Source: Polyangiaceae bacterium | GTDB lineage: Bacteria; Myxococcota_A; Polyangia; Polyangiales; Polyangiaceae | DNA: 64,000 bases | NCBI GenBank assembly: GCA_029266615.1 | Contig: JAQSWN010000003.1 | Location: 1 to 64,000 of the forward strand | Direction of reading: 5' to 3' | Shown here: in pieces, positions 2,841-12,546 of the stretch | How positions within the stretch are numbered: position 1 is the stretch's first letter | Layout: each line of letters begins with the position of its first letter | Notes under the pieces: generated by a model | What the model saw: the letters and a program-made list of their open reading frames with translations, nothing else | Told to the model about the DNA's origin: nothing | Database searches by the model: none | Translations under genes and position numbers: made by a program

Positions 2841-3428
2841 TCAGGTCGCGACGTTGGGGAACTTCTCGATGTGAATGCGGCGCAGCGTCTGCATGACTCG
2901 CTCGATCGCGTGCCAGTCGTCGCTGCGCCCGAGTTGGCGGTTCTGGTCGGAAGCCCAACGCGACGCGTCCGCGACCGTGCTGTGCACCGCGTGCTCGAAG
3001 CTGGGCCTCGCGAGCGCGTGGACCCCGGAAGCGATCGCGCGCACCGACGCGGCCTTGAAACCAGTTCCTTCGTGCGTCACCGAGAAGTGCTTGATGACCG
3101 GCTGTTTCAAGAAGTCAGTGAAGGCCTTGCGCGCCTCGCTGTCTGGCGGGGACGCTTCCGTCTCCACGACGTGCATGACGCCGACCCCGCTCGGGTGCTT
3201 CAGCGCGAGGCTGTTCACGAGCGCGATGCCGTCTCGATAGGGGCCGACCAAGGTACGGCGCCGCCAGACCATGAACGCGATGTTGAAGGCCGCGCCCTTG
3301 ATGTGATCGGCGTCCACCGCGACGACCTCCAGCTCGTTTCCGAAGAGTCGTTCCATCAGTGGAGTGCGGTCCTGAGCGGCGGAATCTGCGACAATTTCCC
3401 GCAAGTTAGCCTGGCGTACTTTCAGCAT
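2841..3428 (-). CDS. Conserved-looking hypothetical protein, third gene of the prenyltransferase operon
   Basis: A 195-residue soluble protein without signal peptide or membrane segment. The N-terminal half alternates beta-like and helical stretches (ELEVVAVDADHIKGAAFNIA, then a WRRRTLVGPYRDG loop and a GVGVMHVVE strand). The C-terminal half is helical and ends VMQTLRRIHIEKF. The pattern recalls a small alpha/beta, possibly STAS-like fold found in other myxobacterial unknowns, but I cannot name a family with confidence. I chose the ATG at 3428; a TTG directly precedes it. It begins 32 bp after the haem-oxygenase-like gene ends, on the same strand, so cotranscription with that gene and the prenyltransferase is likely. 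Confidence 0.6.
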   Translation of the reverse strand: MLKVRQANLREIVADSAAQDRTPLMERLFGNELEVVAVDADHIKGAAFNIAFMVWRRRTLVGPYRDGIALVNSLALKHPSGVGVMHVVETEASPPDSEARKAFTDFLKQPVIKHFSVTHEGTGFKAASVRAIASGVHALARPSFEHAVHSTVADASRWASDQNRQLGRSDDWHAIERVMQTLRRIHIEKFPNVAT

Positions 3429-3460
3429 CAATCACGAAAAGGCTGCCGCACGCGCGGGCC

Positions 3461-4159
3461 TCAACCCGGCACGGGTGGTCTACAATCCGAAAGCGCGTCG
3501 GCGAGGTGCGCCGCCAAGCGCAAAAGGAGCGCGAAAGTTTTCTCCACGGTTTCAGAAACGGCTCGTCGCGAGTGCTCCGGTACCGGCAGTGCGTCGAGCG
3601 TCTTCTGAGCGTCGGCCGTGAATACTTCGTGGGCTTCTTCGGCCGCAAGGTGAGTGCTGCCGAAATAGCGAAGCTCCCGCTCCACGCCGGCTCGCTGCGC
3701 GAAACCAGGTACGCGAATGAAGAACTCGCGTGCCGCCGCCTCCAGTGAGAGCAACAAGGCGAGCCGCTCGTGATCGGAAGAGGCGCTCTGCAGGAGCGAG
3801 ATGAGGCCGTAGGCCACGCGACGCCCAGTCTCGTACTCGGCACCGAAGAGCGAGTGCGCGGAGAGCTCGATACTGAGCCCCTCTAGATCCTCCACGAACC
3901 ATCGATCATGACCTCGGTCGCCCTCTTCCAAGGAAGCTACGATCGGGGCGAGCACCGGGTCCGAGCAGCTTTCCCGCGCCAATTTCAGCATGTCCTGAAA
4001 CGCGAACGTGAAGAAGGCGAGCCGCGGTAGCAGGCGCCGCAAGCTCGAGAGCTTCGCCTCGCCCTCGAGGCGGCGCATGAAGTCATGACCGATGATGAGC
4101 TCGTCCCGCCGCTTGGCGATGAGAGCCTCGACTGCGCCGAGCGTTGACAGGGCAGTCAT
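3461..4159 (-). CDS. Haem-oxygenase-like putative di-iron oxidase/oxygenase
   Basis: A 232-residue all-helical protein. The residues resemble the metal ligands of haem-oxygenase-like di-iron enzymes (CADD, SznF and UndA types): Glu78/Glu79 and His84 in one helix, Glu140 in a second, and H170-x3-E174-x2-H177 in a third (segment YFGSTHLAAEEAHEVF). The H-x3-acid-x2-H spacing is that of the last CADD helix. Such enzymes use O2 to hydroxylate, decarboxylate or rearrange small molecules, often in biosynthetic clusters; a TenA or PqqC-type relative without metal is the main alternative. Its ATG overlaps the stop of the prenyltransferase gene (ATGA, 4156-4159), which implies translational coupling and suggests that it acts on, or just before or after, the prenylated product. 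Confidence 0.65.
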   Translation of the reverse strand: MTALSTLGAVEALIAKRRDELIIGHDFMRRLEGEAKLSSLRRLLPRLAFFTFAFQDMLKLARESCSDPVLAPIVASLEEGDRGHDRWFVEDLEGLSIELSAHSLFGAEYETGRRVAYGLISLLQSASSDHERLALLLSLEAAAREFFIRVPGFAQRAGVERELRYFGSTHLAAEEAHEVFTADAQKTLDALPVPEHSRRAVSETVEKTFALLLRLAAHLADALSDCRPPVPG

Positions 4160-5289
4160 GGCTTGGGCGGCGGTGAGCTGGGGCGTCCGGTCGGAATCGT
4201 CGCCGATTCGCGCCGCTCATCGGTGCAAGTGTAGGCGCCGGGCGCAAGATAGGTCGTGACGCGGACGCGTCCTTCGACGACCCGCAGTGACACGTACGAC
4301 AGCACCCCTTGCGAGCGCTGCAAGCTCTGCCGAGCCAGCACCTTGAGCGCCGCCGAGAGTTGGTCGCCGCTGCGGGCCGGCAAAAGCTCCTGCGTGCGCT
4401 TGAGCGCCTCGTCGTCGTTCGGCGCGTAATTGCGCACCGGCACGTGGACGGTAGCCTCCGGCGCAGAGGCCCCGGGCCGGTACGCGTAGCAAACCAAGAT
4501 CGGGCGCCCGTCGTAAGGGCCGCTGCCCCCCGTGAGCCGCGACAGCCAGCTGGTGGCCGTGCCGGGGCGGATGTTCGAGCTGCCGCGCACCAGCGCTTCC
4601 ACTCCAGTCGCGTCGGTCGCGCTCAGGTAAAGTTTGACGCGAGCTTTCTTCTTCTCCGCGAGGTCCACGGATAAGTAAGGCATGCGCGTGGTGTCCTGGA
4701 GTCGGCTCTCGATGAAGTCCCAGGCTCCCGCGACCCCGAGCGTGCCGAGCGCCGCGCGAGTGAGCTCTCGGGACGCGTTCACGCCGCGCACCTCCGGGTT
4801 GACGTAGGCCTTGAACATCGGGCTTTGCCCTCGGCGTAGGACCGCGGCATGCCACAAGGAAAAGCGCGGCTCGTAGTCGGCGGTTGGCTCGAATATCCCT
4901 GCGATTCGGTCGAAGTCGGTGCCGTCACAGTCGCCGCTCCCCCGGAGCATTTGCTGGAACGCGACGCCCGCCTGCCAGCTCGTCCTGCAAGTAGGCTCGG
5001 GGGTTGCGAGCTGTGACTCGAACAAGAGGCGTAGCTCCGGCTCATCGCGCTCGAAGCCGATAGAGAACTCGAACGGGGTACCGTCGTCCGTGATGTCGTT
5101 GTCCCAAGGAGGCGCGGCAGAAAGCGACGCTTCGGGCCAGCTGCTGCTCACCAGCTGGAACAATGCACTCGCAGCGTCCCTCTCGAGCGGCGGCAGGGCT
5201 AGTGCGTCGCACAAGTATCGTAATCGCTCCGCGCCATACTCGGCGAGCGACGGTAAGAGCGCGGGCCCGAGCTCACGAGCGGTCTTCAC
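4156..5289 (-). CDS. DMATS-type aromatic prenyltransferase
   Basis: A 377-residue protein with features of the dimethylallyl-tryptophan-synthase (ABBA-fold) family, which transfers a prenyl group from a diphosphate to an indole or other aromatic ring without the DDxxD motif. The segment NDITDDGTPFEFSIGFE (about 64-80) corresponds to the conserved stretch whose Glu, here Glu74, contacts the indole NH. Alternating beta strands rich in Lys/Arg and Tyr follow: MFKAYVNPEVRG, KARVKLYLSATD, RPILVCYAYRPG, LSYVSLRVVEGRVRVTTYL. These are the basic and Tyr residues expected around the diphosphate. The length is normal for bacterial members. The start is a GTG at 5289 with a good ribosome binding site, and a near-consensus promoter lies at 5365-5392. 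The prenyl acceptor is unknown. Confidence 0.8.
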   Translation of the reverse strand: MKTARELGPALLPSLAEYGAERLRYLCDALALPPLERDAASALFQLVSSSWPEASLSAAPPWDNDITDDGTPFEFSIGFERDEPELRLLFESQLATPEPTCRTSWQAGVAFQQMLRGSGDCDGTDFDRIAGIFEPTADYEPRFSLWHAAVLRRGQSPMFKAYVNPEVRGVNASRELTRAALGTLGVAGAWDFIESRLQDTTRMPYLSVDLAEKKKARVKLYLSATDATGVEALVRGSSNIRPGTATSWLSRLTGGSGPYDGRPILVCYAYRPGASAPEATVHVPVRNYAPNDDEALKRTQELLPARSGDQLSAALKVLARQSLQRSQGVLSYVSLRVVEGRVRVTTYLAPGAYTCTDERRESATIPTGRPSSPPPKP

Positions 5290-5812
5290 GATGACGCTCC
5301 CTTTCCTGCGAAAACGAGGAGGAGGACCGCCAAAAGCGCGGGCCGGCAGCGGAGGAGTTCGTCAATCATATCGGTTGCGAGACGAGCGTCAAACATTCGC
5401 ATGTTCAAGTACACTCTGGGGAGTTACGAGCGTCCTGCTCAGTGTGGGCGTAAGTGTAAGGAAACGAGCGCTGGCGAGGTGCGCGCGCCATAGAGCCGTA
5501 TGCGCGCTGGCAACGGTCATATATCCCAAGGGTTAATAGCCAGGAGTCCGCCGTGCCATGCCACGACGCCTGGCGCCCGGTCTCGCGCGCTCGCGCGCCG
5601 CTTCTAACCCCTGAGTCTGCTCGAGCCGCCCCCGAGCGCCCCCCTGCTCCGCACGCTTCCTAGTGCTCGCGAGGCCGTGGTGGAAGCTCTGCCGCGCTCG
5701 CTTTCGACAAACTACTAGGCGCGCGGAACCGCCTGGCGAGCGTCAACGTGACGCGCGACTCCGCGACCGCGACACGGAGCCGAAAATTACAGGCTCGCCG
5801 AGGCGGCTTGCC
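5290..5812. other. Long intergenic region between the FAD oxidase and the prenyltransferase
   Basis: About 520 bp. Apart from the promoter at 5365-5392 I find no gene. The part from about 5550 to 5800 is GC-rich with many CG-rich short inverted repeats. Open frames there show no recognisable protein. I looked for a small precursor-peptide gene on both strands and did not find one with a convincing ribosome binding site. Confidence 0.5.
5365..5392 (-). promoter_or_regulatory. Predicted housekeeping promoter of the prenyltransferase operon
   Basis: On the minus strand TTGACG (plus 5387-5392) is followed after 16 bp by TATGAT (plus 5365-5370), close to the sigma-70 consensus. Transcription would start near 5358, leaving a leader of about 70 bases before the GTG at 5289. 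A promoter this good in GC-rich DNA is unlikely by chance. It suggests that the operon is transcribed on its own, separately from the FAD oxidase upstream. Confidence 0.6.
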
Positions 5813-7294
5813 TCAACAACCCGCGGGGAAGATACCGGGGCCCGGCGCGAGAATGTTGCGCGGGTCGAACTGCTCTTTCGCGCGCTCGAAGGCGCGCCAC
5901 TCCCGGCCGTAGTGACGCCGCCAATCCCCGGGCGTGAAGTCCAGCGTCCCGATCGGGTAGCGGGTGCCCCCGAGCGAGCGGGCGTGGTCGAACCACTCGT
6001 TGTTGCGCGCGCGCTTGTTGGCCGCGAAATCCGCGTCGTACCCGGGCTCGTCTCGAGCGGTGAGCACGTCGAACAGGTAAACGAGCTCTTCTTCCGGTAG
6101 TCGGAAGAGGGGACGGGTAATGGTGCTGGTGAGCAGCGGGAAGATCAGCACGAAGCCGAACGAGCCGACGTCGTCCGCTTGAAAGCTCGTGACGACCTCG
6201 TCCACGTGCGCCCCGAGCCCGCTGTCCGGCAAGAACGCGTCGTACCAAGGATGCATGTTGCGATCGAACCGGTCGATGCTGCGCAGAAAGGCGATGAAGT
6301 TGTCGACCGTGAGCTGGAAGTCCAAATACGGAATGTCGTTCGTGCTCAGCGTACCGGGGATGTAGGAGAGGTCGCGGGTCAGGTGGGCGGTGTTGGGCGT
6401 CGTGGACGCGTCGTGGAAGGACGCGATATTGAGCAACCAAACGAACGCGCCCGTCGCGGGGTCGGTCACGCCCTGCGCGTACACGCTGTCCAGCTCCTTG
6501 CGGTACACGAGCGTGCGCAGGTCGTTCTGCAGCGAGTGAACGTCCGGATAGACCATCGTCGAGTTCAGGACGAGCGGCTTGGCTGGAACGAGCTTCACCT
6601 TGGCGCGCACGATGATGCCGCACTGGCCTTGCCCGGCGAGCACATGATCGAACAAGTCCGGGTTCTTGCTCTCCGAGCAGACTTTGATCTTGCCTTTGCC
6701 GGTCACGACCGTGAGCTCCAGGACGTGCTGGATTTGCACTCCCTTGTCGTAAGCCATGCCGCTGATTCCGCCCATCGACAGCGTGCCGCCGATGGATAGT
6801 GCGATGAAGCCCGTCAGCACGGGAGGCGTCTGGGCCGGAAGCGAGGCCTCGAGGAGCTGGCGCCAGGTGCAGCCGCCATCCAAGACCGCGAAGCCATTGC
6901 CGATGTGGTGAATCACCTGCAGAGAGCTCATGTCGATCACGAGACCGGCACGCGCCTGGGCTTGACCGTGCGTGGCGTGCCCCTGCCCTCGCGCCGCGAC
7001 GACGATGTCGCGCTCCGCGCAGAACTTCACCATCTTGGCGATGTCTTCGATCGAGCCAGGGCGAAGCACGGCCTTTGGCTTGTTGAAGATGATGTTGCCG
7101 AGATCCGTCTCTTTGGCCGCGCGCGAAGCAGCGTCCGTTAGCAGCACGCCTTCGAGCCGCGGAACGCGATCGAAGGTACCGTGACCGCCGCCCTCTTCCG
7201 TCACCCAAGCGCGTGCGTCCCGGCTGTATCCGAGGATGACGGACGCCGCACCCACCACCTTCAGAAAATCACGCCGATCGATTTGCTTGGTCAC
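5813..7294 (-). CDS. Cytokinin-dehydrogenase-like FAD-dependent oxidoreductase, Tat-exported
   Basis: A 493-residue protein with a twin-arginine start (DRRDFLKVVGAASVILG) and a PCMH-type FAD domain. ARGQGHATHGQAQA matches the cytokinin dehydrogenase motif whose His (here His106) carries covalent FAD. Other matches to that family are LSIGGTLSMGGISG, HPWYDAFLPD, and the C-terminal run DWRRHYGREWRAFERAKEQFDPRNILAPG. In plant enzymes a catalytic Asp sits in WTDYLYLTVGG; the aligned segment here is LTGFIALSIGG, so Gly162 replaces it. True cytokinin oxidation is therefore doubtful, and another amine or alcohol substrate is possible. The GTG start at 7294 has a strong GGAGG site. It lies upstream of the prenyltransferase operon on the same strand but 523 bp away. 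Confidence 0.8.
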   Translation of the reverse strand: MTKQIDRRDFLKVVGAASVILGYSRDARAWVTEEGGGHGTFDRVPRLEGVLLTDAASRAAKETDLGNIIFNKPKAVLRPGSIEDIAKMVKFCAERDIVVAARGQGHATHGQAQARAGLVIDMSSLQVIHHIGNGFAVLDGGCTWRQLLEASLPAQTPPVLTGFIALSIGGTLSMGGISGMAYDKGVQIQHVLELTVVTGKGKIKVCSESKNPDLFDHVLAGQGQCGIIVRAKVKLVPAKPLVLNSTMVYPDVHSLQNDLRTLVYRKELDSVYAQGVTDPATGAFVWLLNIASFHDASTTPNTAHLTRDLSYIPGTLSTNDIPYLDFQLTVDNFIAFLRSIDRFDRNMHPWYDAFLPDSGLGAHVDEVVTSFQADDVGSFGFVLIFPLLTSTITRPLFRLPEEELVYLFDVLTARDEPGYDADFAANKRARNNEWFDHARSLGGTRYPIGTLDFTPGDWRRHYGREWRAFERAKEQFDPRNILAPGPGIFPAGC

Positions 7295-7506
7295 GCCGAC
7301 ACCTCCGGAGCCTCGAAATGCGACAACATCTCGTCAGGGAGATTCAACGTAGACTGAATAAATGTCCCTCTTCAAGACGCTTGATACGCGGCCTCGAAGT
7401 TCGGTGTGGGTAGGCGCGCTCGTTGACTACATTCGTCACCGAACGCCCACAGAGTAGCTAAAACGAGCGCTGAGCGCCTACGCGTCGATAGCCGAGCCGA
7501 CTCCGC

Positions 7507-8468
7507 TCACTCCGGCACGTCGGGCACGATGGTTCCGCAGTCCACGAATTCGAGGTTCGTGTCCGCACGAAAGTTGGACTCCGACGTGTGGCGCTCGGCA
7601 TGAAACATGTCGAACGAGTAAACGTTGCCGGTCTCGATCCCGACGTCCGCAGCGACCTCATCCACTTCGAGGCGCGCGTCCTGCGCTCCGTGCACGCCAC
7701 CGAGATCCACCACGAGCTGCCCGTTGATGAAGATCCATACGTCGTCGTCGCCGGTGAAATTGAAAACCTCTCCGCCGCTGTAGCGGAACCGAGTGTGGAT
7801 CTCGGTCGTGAAGTGAAAGTTACGGCCGTCCTGACCTTCTTCGAAGCCGGCGCCGTCGAGCGGAAAGAACGCGTTGCTCTGGAAGCTCGTGTTGCCACCG
7901 CTGGGAGCGAAGAACACCTCGAGCACGTACGGCTCGTTGCGCGTGCCGTTGCGGTACCACTCGTTGAACGACTCAGGCCCAGACACGGTTTGCGTCTCGG
8001 CGGGGTGAGCGAACACGGGCTTGCGATCGGCGCCGAGAGCCGTTTCGACGAGCCCCTTTTCGGCCGCCACCGTGCGTTCGAAGTCGGGGTGCTCGGGGGT
8101 GAAGTCCCGCACCACCGCCAAGATGGTCGTGCCGCATCCTTCCGCGTCGTCGGACGGAGCGCCGCCAGCGCTGCCCTCGTCGGAAGTGATGCGCTCGCCG
8201 AGGCGGTAGCCGCCGACCTGTCATTGGTGAAGCCCGGCGGCACCGTGCCGGGTGTGGGACCGGGGCCACCCCCGTTGTCACCGCCGGCGCCGGTCGCGCT
8301 CGTCCCGGCCACGGGTTCTAGGCTGAAGGATCCCGCGACCGCAGTGGAGCCCCCTCGCCCGGCGCTCCCCTCCACCACGCTTCCGTCATCCTTGCTGTCA
8401 CTGCACGCCGCCAAAGCCAACAGCACGAGGCCTCCCACCGTCAGCGTGACCACTTCTTTCGGCGCCAT
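7507..8468 (-). pseudogene. Fibro-slime domain lipoprotein with an apparent frameshift
   Basis: The frame from the ATG at 8468 encodes a lipoprotein signal (lipobox LAAC) and a Gly/Ala/Ser-rich linker ending PPGFTN. The fibro-slime domain is in another frame: GCGTTILAVVRDF, then FNFTGDDDVWIFINGQLVVD and DLGGVHGAQDAR, ending VDCGTIVPDVPE at 7507. That second frame is open back to a TGA at about 8221-8225, and its first codons read QVGGYRLGERITSDEG. The two parts therefore join naturally if one base is restored near 8219-8224. This is a genuine frameshift mutation or an assembly error. Fibro-slime domains occur in secreted or surface proteins of Polyangia. A GGACA/TGTCC palindrome lies upstream. 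Confidence 0.75.
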
Positions 8469-8524
8469 GACTGGAATGTACCTCGTCTCTGACGACCGGA
8501 CAGGCGTACGCGAGGACCGAAACG

Positions 8525-8549
8525 CGGACAATTGTCCGGACGTGTGTCC
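8525..8549. promoter_or_regulatory. Tandem GGACA/TGTCC palindromes upstream of the fibro-slime gene
   Basis: CGGACAATTGTCCG (8525-8538) is a perfect 14-bp palindrome. The adjacent GGAC-GTGT-GTCC (8538-8549) is a second, looser dyad with the same half-sites. They lie about 57-80 bp upstream of the fibro-slime ATG at 8468. They are likely operator sites for an unidentified dimeric regulator. Confidence 0.45.
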
Positions 8550-8710
8550 GCCTCACGTTGTTCGTTGCGTGGCTGCGCAGTGACGGATTCAGTGGACTGC
8601 GCGGATGAACCAGCGACGAGGAGCGGCGGTCCGTGCGGCGCATCCGTCAGCCTCGGTCTGCCTTTGCGCCCGACGCGCTCGAGCCCTCACAAAACTTCAT
8701 CCCCGGCGCC

Positions 8711-8769
8711 TTGACGATGTGGCAGATATATCTATAGCTATATCTAACGACATATCGCGAGACATATCG
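8711..8769 (+). promoter_or_regulatory. Promoter and PadR-type operator cluster of the padR gene
   Basis: TTGACG (8711-8716) and TATAGC (8733-8738) form a promoter with 16-bp spacing. Over it lies an inverted repeat of AGATATA (8724-8730) and TATATCT (8739-8745). Two direct copies of GACATATCG follow (8749-8757 and 8761-8769), 12 bp apart. PadR regulators commonly bind AT-rich dyads in their own promoters, so autorepression is the simplest reading. Confidence 0.6.
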
Positions 8770-8819
8770 AAAGCCGCTTCAGAGCGATTAAGCCGCTGAC
8801 TTTATTGGAGAAGATGAAG

Positions 8820-9440
8820 ATGTATCGAGATTCCGCCTGCGGGCCGGAGCAGTTTTGGTGGATGAGCCGCGGCGGCTGGAGCGCCGGGGCGGCAGGCGGT
8901 CGTGGCGGTCCGGGTGGTGGGCGTGGTGGCCGTCCATGGTGGGCAGACGCCATGGGTGAGCCTCCGCCCCGCGCCGAACGCGGTGGCGTGCGCTACCTCG
9001 TGCTCGAAGCGATCGCCGATCAGCCCCGCCACGGCTACGAAATCATCCAGCATATCGAGCAACGCGCAGGCGGCTCATACCGACCGAGCCCCGGGGTCAT
9101 TTACCCCACCCTGCAGATGCTCGAAGAGCTTCAGCACGCGCGCGTCGTCGAGCAGGACGGGAAGAAGGTCTACGGAATCACGGAGACCGGCAAGGCCGAC
9201 CTCGAGACGAACCGCAACAGCGTGGACGAGTTTTATGCGCGATTCACCGAGGACCAGCCTTGGGAATCATACGCAGAAGACTTCGCGGAGCTGATGAAGC
9301 GAGTGGGTCGTCTCATGCAGACGTTCCGCAAAGGTGCGCATCGCGGGCGCATGTCGCCGACGACCATGCGCGCCATCCGCGTCGCGCTGGACGAGGCTCT
9401 CCGCAAAATCGAAGACGTGTTGAACGGCCCTCAGCGCTGA
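8820..9440 (+). CDS. PadR-family transcriptional regulator with Gly/Trp-rich N-terminal extension
   Basis: A winged-helix regulator of about 206 residues. The PadR domain begins after about 50 residues: RYLVLEAIADQPRHGYEIIQHIE, then the wing motif YRPSPGVIYPTLQMLEE and KKVYGITETGKADL. The C-terminal part is a helical dimerisation region of the Vir_act_alpha type. An unusual Gly/Arg/Trp-rich N-terminal tail (residues about 10-45) precedes the domain. I prefer the ATG at 8820 because GGAG at 8807-8810 is well spaced for it; ATG 8814 and TTG 8805 are alternatives. PadR proteins usually repress neighbouring efflux or stress genes, and the next gene in the same direction is an RpoH-like sigma factor, 67 bp away. 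Confidence 0.88.
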   Translation: MYRDSACGPEQFWWMSRGGWSAGAAGGRGGPGGGRGGRPWWADAMGEPPPRAERGGVRYLVLEAIADQPRHGYEIIQHIEQRAGGSYRPSPGVIYPTLQMLEELQHARVVEQDGKKVYGITETGKADLETNRNSVDEFYARFTEDQPWESYAEDFAELMKRVGRLMQTFRKGAHRGRMSPTTMRAIRVALDEALRKIEDVLNGPQR

Positions 9441-9507
9441 GGGCACGAACTTTGCCACTAGGTTTATCGAAGGCTCCGGTCGAAGGGCCCGAGCACAGGT
9501 GTTACTC

Positions 9508-10395
9508 ATGAGTTCCTCCAACGACGACGTGGCGTTCTACATCGCCGAAGCCAAGCGAGCTCCTCGCCTCGAAAGAGAAGAGGAAATAGCCCTGGCCCTG
9601 CGCTGGAAAGAGGGCAATCGGGCCGCTGGCGACGCCCTGGCGCGCGCCAATCTGCGGCACGTGGTGGCGGTCGCCATGAAATACCGGCGCTACGGCGTGC
9701 CGGTGAGTGAGCTGATCGCGGAAGGAAACTTCGGTGTCGTGCACGCGCTCGGCAAGTTCGAGCCGGAGCGCGGAATTCGCTTCGTGACTTACGCCGCGCA
9801 TTGGGTGCGTGCGTACATTCTGGACCACGTGATCAAATCGTGGAGCATGGTCGGCGGCGGCTCCGGGCCACTCCGCTCGCGTCTCTTCTTCAAGCTGCGC
9901 CGGGAGCGCGTGCGCGCCGTCAACCTGATGGGTGAAGGCGAGGCCGCGGACCGCTACGTCGCGGAGCGGGTGGGCGTGACGCCGGAAGAGCTGAGCAAGC
10001 TGGTGCAACGCCTGGAGGCGCGAGACGTCTCGCTAGACGTGAAGGTCTTAGACGACTCGCCCGTGCGGCTGGTGGACTTGCTGCCCGCGCCGGACGACCA
10101 GGAGCGCAGCCTGTTCGAGCACCAAGTGGGTGGCAGCATGCGCTCGGCCGTGGAGCGAGCGGTCTCGGAGTTGGATCCGCGCGAGCGCTACATCGCCGAG
10201 CACCGCCTCATGGCCGATCCTTCGGACGAGCTGTCGCTCGCGGAGATCGGTCGCAGCCTGGGCGTGTCCCGCGAGCGCGCGCGTCAGCTGGAAGCGCGCA
10301 CGAAGCGCAAGCTGCGAAGTCGAATTCCGGCGCTCGGCAGCGCGGTGGTCACGGAGTGGATCGCGAACTCGGTCGAGCACGCGCCCGCCGCCTGA
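9508..10395 (+). CDS. RpoH-like (sigma-32 group) alternative sigma factor
   Basis: About 295 residues. Region 2 is clear: NLRHVVAVAMKYRRYGVPVSELIAEGNFGVVHALGKF, then RFVTYAAHWVRAYILDHVIKSWSMV (regions 2.3-2.4). The segment LFFKLRRER follows, as in RpoH proteins. Region 4.2 is SLAEIGRSLGVSRERARQLEARTKRKL, a helix-turn-helix for the -35 element. I use the ATG at 9508; an in-frame GTG lies at 9499. Heat-shock-type sigma factors are multiplied in myxobacteria, so this may serve development or stress rather than classical heat shock. It could be cotranscribed with padR. Confidence 0.85.
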   Translation: MSSSNDDVAFYIAEAKRAPRLEREEEIALALRWKEGNRAAGDALARANLRHVVAVAMKYRRYGVPVSELIAEGNFGVVHALGKFEPERGIRFVTYAAHWVRAYILDHVIKSWSMVGGGSGPLRSRLFFKLRRERVRAVNLMGEGEAADRYVAERVGVTPEELSKLVQRLEARDVSLDVKVLDDSPVRLVDLLPAPDDQERSLFEHQVGGSMRSAVERAVSELDPRERYIAEHRLMADPSDELSLAEIGRSLGVSRERARQLEARTKRKLRSRIPALGSAVVTEWIANSVEHAPAA

Positions 10396-10511
10396 GTATC
10401 GCGAGGAGTCGGGCGATCTCGACCTGATCGCCCCGGCCGAGGCATTAGGCCGCTAAGAAAGCAGCTCTCGCCGCGCACTATGGCTGGAACGGCGCGTGCA
10501 GTCCGGCTGGC

Positions 10512-11423
10512 ATGAGCTGGCGCACCCTCGTGACGATCGTCAAACAGACGGCGTCCGATTGGGTCGACGACGGCGCCTCTCGCCTCGCGGCGTCGCTCGC
10601 TTTCTATACGCTGCTTTCGATGGCGCCCCTCGTCATCATCACCATCGCGGTGGCGGGCGTGGTGCTCGGCCCCGAAGCGGCGCGAGGTCAGATTGCCGAC
10701 GAGCTGAGCCGCGTGGTCGGCCGGGACGCCGCGCGCGGCCTGCAGGCCGTCGTGGCGAGCGCGCAATCACCTGCTTCTGGCACGATCGGCACCATCATCG
10801 GTGTCATCACGTTGTTCGTTGGCGCCTCGGGCGTTTTTGGCGAGCTGCAGTACGCGCTCAACGCAATCTGGGAAGTGCGAGCCAAGCCCGGACGCGGCAT
10901 CCTCGGGGAGGTCAAGGATCGCTTCTCCTCCTTCACCATGGTGCTCGGTGTAGCGTTTCTGCTGCTGGTTTCGCTCTTGCTGAGCACCGTGCTCAGCGCG
11001 GTGGGCCATTCGTTCACGCCGTTACTGCCGGGCGGCGAGTTGGTCTGGCAGATCTGCAATTTCGTTTTCTCGTTCGCGATGATCACCGGCCTTTTCGGGC
11101 TGATCTTCAAGTACGTGCCAGACGTAGAAATCGCCTGGCGAGACGTCTGGGCCGGGGCCGCCGTCACCGCTCTGTTGTTCACGATCGGTAAGTCTTTACT
11201 CGGAATTTACTTGGGCAAAGCTTCGATCGGCTCGTCTTACGGCGCCGCGGGCTCGTTGGTCGTCCTCGTCGTTTGGGTCTACTACTCGGCGCAAATCCTG
11301 TTCTTGGGGGCCGAGTTCACGCAGGTGCAGGCCAAGCTGCGTGGCCGGAGCATCCGGCCGTCACGCAAAGCGGTCGCGTTTCGCCGCGGCTCGGACTTGA
11401 GCGAGCCGCGGGAGCAACATTGA
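10512..11423 (+). CDS. YihY/virulence factor BrkB family inner-membrane protein
   Basis: A 303-residue protein with about six membrane helices. Family hallmarks are GASRLAASLAFYTLLSMAPL near the N-terminus, GVFGELQYALNAIWEV, the long hydrophobic run MVLGVAFLLLVSLLLSTVLSAVG, KYVPDVEIAWRDVWAGA, and GSSYGAAGSLVVLVVWVYYS with the following GAEFTQV. These proteins were once taken for RNase BN; the transport or envelope function is not settled. The C-terminal tail is basic and cytoplasmic. The gene starts at an ATG at 10512, 116 bp after the sigma factor gene. Confidence 0.9.
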   Translation: MSWRTLVTIVKQTASDWVDDGASRLAASLAFYTLLSMAPLVIITIAVAGVVLGPEAARGQIADELSRVVGRDAARGLQAVVASAQSPASGTIGTIIGVITLFVGASGVFGELQYALNAIWEVRAKPGRGILGEVKDRFSSFTMVLGVAFLLLVSLLLSTVLSAVGHSFTPLLPGGELVWQICNFVFSFAMITGLFGLIFKYVPDVEIAWRDVWAGAAVTALLFTIGKSLLGIYLGKASIGSSYGAAGSLVVLVVWVYYSAQILFLGAEFTQVQAKLRGRSIRPSRKAVAFRRGSDLSEPREQH

Positions 11424-11520
11424 GCGGCCTCGGTCTGGTCGGACGGCAGCTTTTCGTGCTGAGCTTTGCGGCGCGGCGTACCCGCAGTGCGCGCCCACTC
11501 GGGGCGCGGAGGAGCTCTTC

Positions 11521-12546
11521 ATGAAGTACAAGCGGTTGGGTAGCGCAGGGGTCAAGGTATCGGAGCTGTGCCTCGGCGGAATGACCTTCGGCGAGGCGGA
11601 CGAGAAGTCGTTCATGCACAAGCTGGGTAGTGACGAGGAGACGGCTTGGCGCGTGATGAGCCGCGCGCTGGAGCTCGGGGTCAATTTCATCGACACCGCG
11701 GACGTCTACGGCCAAGACGGATTGAGCGAGCGCGTCATCGGCAATTGGTTCGAGCGAGAAAAGACGCGCGACCAAGTGGTGCTGGCGACGAAGTTTCGTT
11801 TCACCATGGGCGAAGGACCGAACCGCAGCGGCGCCTCGCGCTACCGCATCGTTCGCTGCGTGGAGGAAAGCTTGCGGCGCTTGAAGACGGACCGCATCGA
11901 CCTCTACCAGATTCACATGCAAGACGTGGAGACGCCGGAGGAAGAAACGCTCCGCGCACTGGACGACTTGGTCCGAAGCGGCAAGGTGCTCTACCTGGGT
12001 TGCTCCAACTACGCGGCGTACCGGCTGATGAACGCTCTGTGGCTCGCGAAGACCTCGCATCTTACGCCGTTCGTCACGCTGCAGGCGGAGTACAGCTTGG
12101 TCGTCCGGGAGCTGGAGCGCGAGCACGTGCCGCTCTGTCGCGACATGGGGCTTGGCGTGCTGCCGTGGTCGCCGCTCGCAGGCGGATTCTTGAGCGGCAA
12201 GTACGAGCGGTCCCAGCAACCGGCGACTGGGACGCGCCTCGGCGAGAAGCAGGAGCGATTGGCGCGGTTCGATAACGACCGCTCGTGGCGCGCTCTCGGC
12301 GTCGCCAAAGAGATCGCGGCCGAGCTGTCGACATCGCCCGCGGCGGTGTCGCTCGCGTGGCTGCTGAGCAAACCGCAAGTCACCTCCGCCATCTTCGGGG
12401 CCCGCACCTTGGACCAGCTCGAAAGCAACGTGAAGGCCACGGAGCTTTCACTGAGCGCGGAACAGATCAAGCGCCTGGACGACGCCTCTGCGCTGGAGCT
12501 CGGCTACCCCTACGGCTTCATGAATAATGTTCAAGGGCGCTGGTGA
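11521..12546 (+). CDS. Aldo/keto reductase
   Basis: A 341-residue TIM-barrel NADPH-dependent oxidoreductase. The catalytic residues are visible: Asp and Tyr in FIDTADVYGQDG, Lys in VVLATKFRF, and His in DLYQIHMQD. The cofactor-binding end shows SPLAGGFLSGKY and IFGARTLDQLESN. The start MKYKRLGSAGVKVSELCLGGMTFG is typical of the YajO/Tas-like subgroup. GGAG stands well placed before the ATG. Likely role: reduction of aldehydes or ketones; substrate unknown. It stands alone between the BrkB-family gene and a lipoprotein gene. Confidence 0.93.
   Translation: MKYKRLGSAGVKVSELCLGGMTFGEADEKSFMHKLGSDEETAWRVMSRALELGVNFIDTADVYGQDGLSERVIGNWFEREKTRDQVVLATKFRFTMGEGPNRSGASRYRIVRCVEESLRRLKTDRIDLYQIHMQDVETPEEETLRALDDLVRSGKVLYLGCSNYAAYRLMNALWLAKTSHLTPFVTLQAEYSLVVRELEREHVPLCRDMGLGVLPWSPLAGGFLSGKYERSQQPATGTRLGEKQERLARFDNDRSWRALGVAKEIAAELSTSPAAVSLAWLLSKPQVTSAIFGARTLDQLESNVKATELSLSAEQIKRLDDASALELGYPYGFMNNVQGRW

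Follow-up and report, generated by a model that had tools for sequence, protein, structure and literature searches.

A DMATS-type prenyltransferase and an AetD-type haem-oxygenase-like enzyme encoded together in a Polyangiaceae bacterium: a predicted route to prenylated one-carbon indoles

What might a bacterium make with an aromatic prenyltransferase and a small haem-oxygenase-like (HO-like) protein whose genes overlap? The question is raised by a locus within positions 1 to 64,000 of contig JAQSWN010000003.1 of a Polyangiaceae bacterium (GenBank assembly GCA_029266615.1), a 64,000-nucleotide stretch referred to here as the window. On its minus strand, a gene with a GTG start encodes P0001, a DMATS (dimethylallyltryptophan synthase)-type aromatic prenyltransferase of 377 aa (4156-5289), and the next gene encodes the HO-like protein P0002, of 232 aa (3461-4159); the two share an ATGA stop/start overlap, read from the sequence at 4156-4159. 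A third gene, for the 195-aa protein P0003 (2841-3428, minus strand), lies 32 bp further on. The overlap, the 32-bp gap and these three genes had been described in an original prediction made from the sequence alone and were found as described, but that gene set omitted a gene for a flavin adenine dinucleotide (FAD)-linked oxidase (5813-7294, minus strand), which belongs to it. The short pathway to a prenylated and oxidised aromatic compound envisaged at that time is supported in outline by the presence of both enzyme genes in one operon, by their linkage and by gene fusions, with a product that can be proposed by inference. In our judgement, the two enzymes probably form a relay, in which the prenyltransferase is followed by a haem-oxygenase-like di-metal oxidase (HDO) of the type of AetD, the tryptophan nitrile synthase of Aetokthonos, and which, with tailoring by the FAD enzyme, would give a prenylated one-carbon indole.

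Kinship and residues of the two core enzymes

By sequence and structural kinship, P0002 belongs to the AetD-type HDOs. A profile of its family searched against the PDB found AetD as the best match (E=3.4e-28) with BesC far behind (4.6e-8), and the single sequence matched AetD alone (9.4e-4). The AlphaFold model, with a predicted local distance difference test score (pLDDT) of 86 and a predicted template modelling score of 0.86, has the seven-helix HO fold. Searched with this model, AetD filled the first 5 rows in Foldseek and the first 11 in VIA-align (Z 21.5, with 213 residues superposed at 2.7 A), followed by HrmI, CADD and BesC (Z 18.6 and lower) and by PqqC and TenA (~16); HDO structures scored Z 15-21. 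The iron ligands of AetD are D76, H79, E140, H172, E176 and H179, and its substrate residues are F44, F48 and Y167 (PMC11611611; PMC10654658). The ligands align to D81, H84, E140, H170, E174 and H177 of P0002, a 3-His/3-carboxylate set on three core helices, and the substrate residues to F50, F54 and Y165. All five ligands named in the original prediction (H170-x3-E174-x2-H177, E140 and H84) are present, and the sixth, D81 of the D81-x2-H84 motif, had been left out. Ligand and substrate positions are kept in 11/11 other intact AetD-type relatives, with D81 replaced by E in two and F50 by Y in two. The conservation of Y165 is telling because Y167 is described as a trait that sets AetD apart from other HDOs (PMC11611611). 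Di-metal binding and the use of O2 are predicted from the kept ligands and the modelled fold. The assignment as an HO-like di-iron enzyme is supported, while the specific kinship to AetD, and hence a chemistry on the tryptophan side chain, had not been foreseen. Formation of indole-3-carbonitrile is only predicted from sequence, hence the label "AetD-type" rather than "nitrile synthase".

The prenyltransferase is assigned with less ambiguity as to family, since P0001 reaches 62.1 bits (E=7.7e-17) against the Pfam family PF11991 (Trp_DMAT), above the gathering cut-off of 25, in agreement with the earlier naming of a DMATS-type enzyme. It remains below the curated cut-off of the NCBIfam subfamily TIGR03429 (101.5 vs 163.85 bits), and the narrower subfamily name is therefore unsuitable. 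Its closest solved structures are bacterial DMATS enzymes, among them PriB and 6-DMATS (6-dimethylallyltryptophan synthase). In an alignment of 19 DMATS sequences, E74 is invariant and K160, Y162, R217, K219, Y221 and Y347 are nearly so; from knowledge of FgaPT2, we take E74 to be the glutamate base and the lysine, arginine and tyrosine residues to be the diphosphate shield. A search for related loci with a narrowed DMATS alignment gave 5 named loci.

Linkage, gene fusions and the FAD-linked oxidase

The genomes searched comprised 59 relatives, 379 genomes of the phylum and 241 genomes of the class, with other phyla sampled via a plasmid collection only. In the relatives, DMATS and HO-like matches fall at the same places, and across the phylum all HO-profile matches at E <= 1e-30 lie inside or beside a DMATS gene, that of G034 having been detected in the search of the relatives. 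In the class survey, where the threshold for AetD-type HO was E <= 1e-45, such proteins occur in 15 genomes and a DMATS gene lies within ~2.5 kb in 13 of them; in the other two, the locus is split over contig ends (G001) or HO and FAD genes stand without DMATS on a 5.7-kb contig (G425). Another six DMATS genes found in the class lack any HDO. The ATGA-type overlap recurs in the sister genome G006 and in G464, and six-frame domain mapping revealed single DMATS-HO proteins at loci L064, L065, L066, L067 and L068, including a DMATS-HO-FAD trifusion at L064 (an open frame of 1153 aa), as well as a DMATS-FAD fusion at L080. Such adjacency and fusion are far beyond chance, and the DMATS-HDO pair is a real unit. 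The comparison of neighbourhoods in other Polyangia, which the original prediction had suggested as a check, thus found the two genes adjacent or fused in many genomes instead of never together; the pairing itself had been anticipated, whereas the fusions and a constant third enzyme had not.

This third enzyme is the FAD oxidase, encoded directly upstream of the DMATS gene on the same strand and separated from it by a 520-bp intergenic region. It matches PF09265 (E=9.1e-26, 91.3 bits vs a cut-off of 23) and PF01565 (9.8e-24), gives a weak TAT match, aligns with cytokinin dehydrogenase (CKX) structures at 2e-56, and carries at its N-terminus the motif RRDFLK, resembling a twin-arginine translocation (Tat) signal. 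The family is found at 17/17 readable AetD-type loci, in two branches, one CKX-like and one more distant. Pairwise distances among DMATS, HO and FAD sequences correlate (r 0.50, 0.58 and 0.56, with a Mantel p of 0.0002 in every case). Joint inheritance would produce such a correlation, although shared species history contributes to it too. Upstream of the oxidase gene lies a gene for a PA14-domain protein (7507-8121, minus strand), kept beside the FAD oxidase in G006 too.

In the DMATS tree, the split pair of the window falls in a clade of 8 (support 98/96) with the fused L064, L065, L066 and L067, so the separate genes of the window likely arose by fission of an older fusion. The DMATS-fused HDO domain has lost its ligands at L067 (G003), L133 (G048) and L132 (G384), and at each of these loci an intact separate AetD-type HDO is encoded within 3 kb. 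Since AetD is a dimer (PMC10654658), we hypothesise that the ligand-less domain, possibly a pseudo-enzyme, docks the active separate HDO.

The pair is also encoded outside Myxococcota. A tblastn search of plasmids with the L065 fusion found, on plasmid AP018277.1 of Calothrix sp. NIES-4101, the DMATS BAZ36825.1 and, 155 bp after it, the HO-like BAZ36824.1, which has the complete AetD signature of ligands and substrate residues; both entries are annotated as hypothetical proteins. At this locus (L219, AP018277.1 109276-126615), DMATS, AetD-type HDO, a flavin monooxygenase (FMO) and a short-chain dehydrogenase/reductase stand in a row at 7407-12042. A second family of DMATS-HDO fusions (L072, L073, L074, L075, L138, L203, L206, L207, L208, L209 and L217) contains a different HDO, with the ligand pattern E-x9-H, E, H-x3-E-x2-H and a profile that gives weak matches to BesC and CADD but none to AetD. 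A kynureninase-like gene of the class-V pyridoxal phosphate enzymes adjoins 11/11 clear loci of this family and 0 AetD-type loci, while the FAD oxidase is absent at those 11 loci and present only at the weak-scoring L134; partner genes therefore sort strictly by HDO type. The kynureninase-like gene, being confined to the second family, was rejected as part of the window-type set, and DMATS pairing is seen to occur with two different HDO types. Among other HDO loci, L216 (4440-8506) encodes an AetD-type HDO without DMATS, then two tandem FMO-like flavoproteins; a tryptophan halogenase was suspected there and rejected, with no PDB match at 1e-10 and matches to generic FMO-like flavoprotein families only. 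Tandem double-HDO-like proteins of ~530-580 aa were also seen in Polyangia (G021:C8, G399:C198 and G263:C229).

A predicted pathway and its alternatives

How the substrates, the order of steps and the product might look, we infer as follows. DMATS would place a dimethylallyl group on the indole ring of L-tryptophan. The AetD-type enzyme would then bind prenyl-tryptophan by its amino-acid end at Fe1, in the way that bromo-tryptophan is bound by AetD, and activate O2, so that the side chain would be cut or rearranged to leave a prenylated indole-3-carbonitrile, or the carbaldehyde, or, as with SktA, a skatole. The CKX-like FAD oxidase may then oxidise or cyclise the prenyl part, in this species possibly outside the cytoplasm, because it carries the Tat-type signal; P0003, probably a STAS-like protein, would be an accessory or a regulator. 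Substituents on the indole are likely to be tolerated, because L-Trp, 5-Br-Trp and 5,7-diBr-Trp are all bound by AetD, whose activity does not depend on bromination (PMC10654658). The products of AetD are 5,7-dibromo-indole-3-carbonitrile and glycolate, with the carbaldehyde as a shunt product (PMC11611611). Prenylated indole nitriles and aldehydes also have a precedent, since actinomycetes make them from prenyl-tryptophan: in Streptomyces, DMATS and an FMO yield 5-dimethylallylindole-3-acetonitrile, and the IptA route yields 6-dimethylallylindole-3-carbaldehyde (PMC3617294).

Several points weigh against this pathway. The identity between P0002 and AetD is only 18-20%, and P0002 does not reach the cut-off of Pfam Haem_oxygenas_2 (19.2 vs 28.9 bits), which its fused relatives L065, L072 and L075 pass. 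S214 and I146 of the AetD indole pocket are L212 and F146 in P0002. The role of the FAD enzyme is a guess. DMATS enzymes are promiscuous and can prenylate substrates besides tryptophan, so the substrate of P0001 could be another one. It should also be considered that HDOs with equal ligands diverge in chemistry, AetD forming a nitrile and SktA a skatole, and that the S214 position differs in SktA as well (PMC13108848).

The best surviving alternative, which we nevertheless regard as unlikely, is that the HDO performs another oxidation of the amino-acid part of prenyl-tryptophan, such as N-oxygenation or desaturation, and not a truncation of the AetD or SktA type. The divergent chemistry among HDOs of one ligand set (PMC13108848) and the residues at 146 and 212 would agree with this. 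However, the AetD-specific tyrosine ahead of the core alpha-3 motif (Y167/Y165) and the equivalents of F44 and F48 are kept, and the nearest kin is AetD, not HrmI, RohS, BesC or PolF. Slightly less likely still is a pathway in which the pair acts in sequence but DMATS prenylates another aromatic amino acid or indole, so that something other than a simple prenylated indole nitrile is made. Apart from the general promiscuity of DMATS enzymes, it is favoured by the low similarity of DMATS homologues outside the sister genome to P0001 (only 24-42%) and by the crystallisation of AetD with Tyr and Phe (8zvg, 8zvh), while the inclusion of PriB and 6-dimethylallyltryptophan synthase among the nearest characterised PDB relatives, and the action of AetD and SktA on tryptophans, point back to tryptophan. 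A reading of P0002 as a TenA/PqqC-like protein without metal, or as a regulator, in an incidental neighbourhood is highly improbable and was rejected: the HO fold does include TenA and PqqC, P0002 is under the Pfam cut-off, and fused copies at L067, L132 and L133 have lost the ligands, but the ligand set is complete in P0002 and all other intact copies, AetD superposes best (Z 21 vs ~16), and the two genes are linked and fused.

The DMATS-HDO relay is further favoured because an intact separate HDO adjoins each of the three ligand-less fused ones. A wider proposal, put forward tentatively and with clearly less confidence, is that DMATS-HDO(-FAD) constitutes a compact assembly line, present in Polyangia and in one cyanobacterium, that has undergone repeated fusion and splitting and converts tryptophan and dimethylallyl diphosphate directly to prenylated indole-3-carbonitriles or related one-carbon indoles, with the ligand-less fused HDO of some members serving only to dock the active HDO by heterodimerisation.

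Accessory features and known systems

For P0003, no family was found above cut-off in profile-library searches. The best structural matches of its model, which is of moderate quality (pLDDT 70), are STAS folds (SiaC, Z 8.8; SpoIIAA, 8.0; RsbS-type), and by this resemblance it is probably a STAS-like accessory protein. Its family is multi-copy in related genomes (up to 8 matches per genome) and stands at some, not all, of the related loci, for which reasons it is treated as accessory; the original prediction had called the protein unknown and did not foresee a widespread paralogue family. The genome of the window has a second copy of the gene (G000:C56:10651-11127), 60% identical to P0003. Ahead of the DMATS gene, the near-consensus promoter claimed earlier corresponds to the promoter-like site TTGACG-N16-TATGAT (5392-5365, minus strand), matching 10 of 12 consensus positions. 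With 0.6 such sites expected by chance, the scan taken alone says little; however, in a two-genome comparison the block ~5363-5428 is nearly unchanged in G006, while the remainder of the 520 bp between the two genes has drifted, which supports a real, though predicted, promoter. The window and G006 also share, upstream of the block, the conserved stretch TTAACCC..GGG..ATATGACCGTTGCCA, perhaps a regulator site.

Each component is of a known kind, whereas the DMATS-HDO combination and the fusions appear to be new. No description of DMATS with an HDO, or of DMATS in myxobacteria, was found in the open-access literature, and the words "prenyl", "fused" and "fusion" are absent from the text of a 2026 review of HDOs (PMC13108848). 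The earlier statement that no such pathway is described therefore holds for this gene set within that literature, although closely analogous products arise in actinomycetes from DMATS and other partners (PMC3617294). About 12 HDOs have been characterised, two of which are named as acting on tryptophan (PMC13108848). The loci add a large, genetically anchored AetD-type group in Myxococcota and Cyanobacteria, whose substrate may be predicted from the fused enzyme that would make it. They offer a direct test of whether partner genes foretell HDO substrates, and the fusions could serve as ready-made bifunctional biocatalysts.

Cytokinin dehydrogenase (PF09265), which acts on an isoprenylated substrate, aligns with the FAD oxidase over most of its length. 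Unlike in CKX, the aspartate of the WTDY motif, the catalytic residue there, is not kept in the FAD oxidase of the window, where the motif reads LTGF with glycine in its place. AetD shares with P0002 the fold, the six ligands, the D-x2-H and H-x3-E-x2-H spacing and the equivalents of F44, F48 and Y167, and both seem to act after decoration of the indole ring of tryptophan, by bromination for AetD and presumably by prenylation for P0002; it differs in sequence (~19% identity), in S214 and I146, and in that no fusion or linkage to a prenyltransferase is described for it (PMC11611611, PMC10654658). SktA, an HDO which converts 5-bromo-Trp to 5-bromoskatole, likewise acts on tryptophan and shares the predicted ligand set, but the residue corresponding to A142 of AetD and P0002 is T142 in SktA, and DMATS is not reported with it (PMC13108848). 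In the SCO7467/SCO7468 and IptA pathways of Streptomyces, as proposed here, DMATS makes prenyl-tryptophan and a partner shortens or converts the side chain; that partner, however, is a flavin monooxygenase or, with IptA, a tryptophanase instead of an HDO, and neither fusions nor a FAD oxidase are described (PMC3617294). No flavin monooxygenase was seen among the neighbouring genes read beside the window set, while the Calothrix locus has one. The Polyangia set would likely be a third, independent bacterial route to side-chain-shortened prenyl-indoles.

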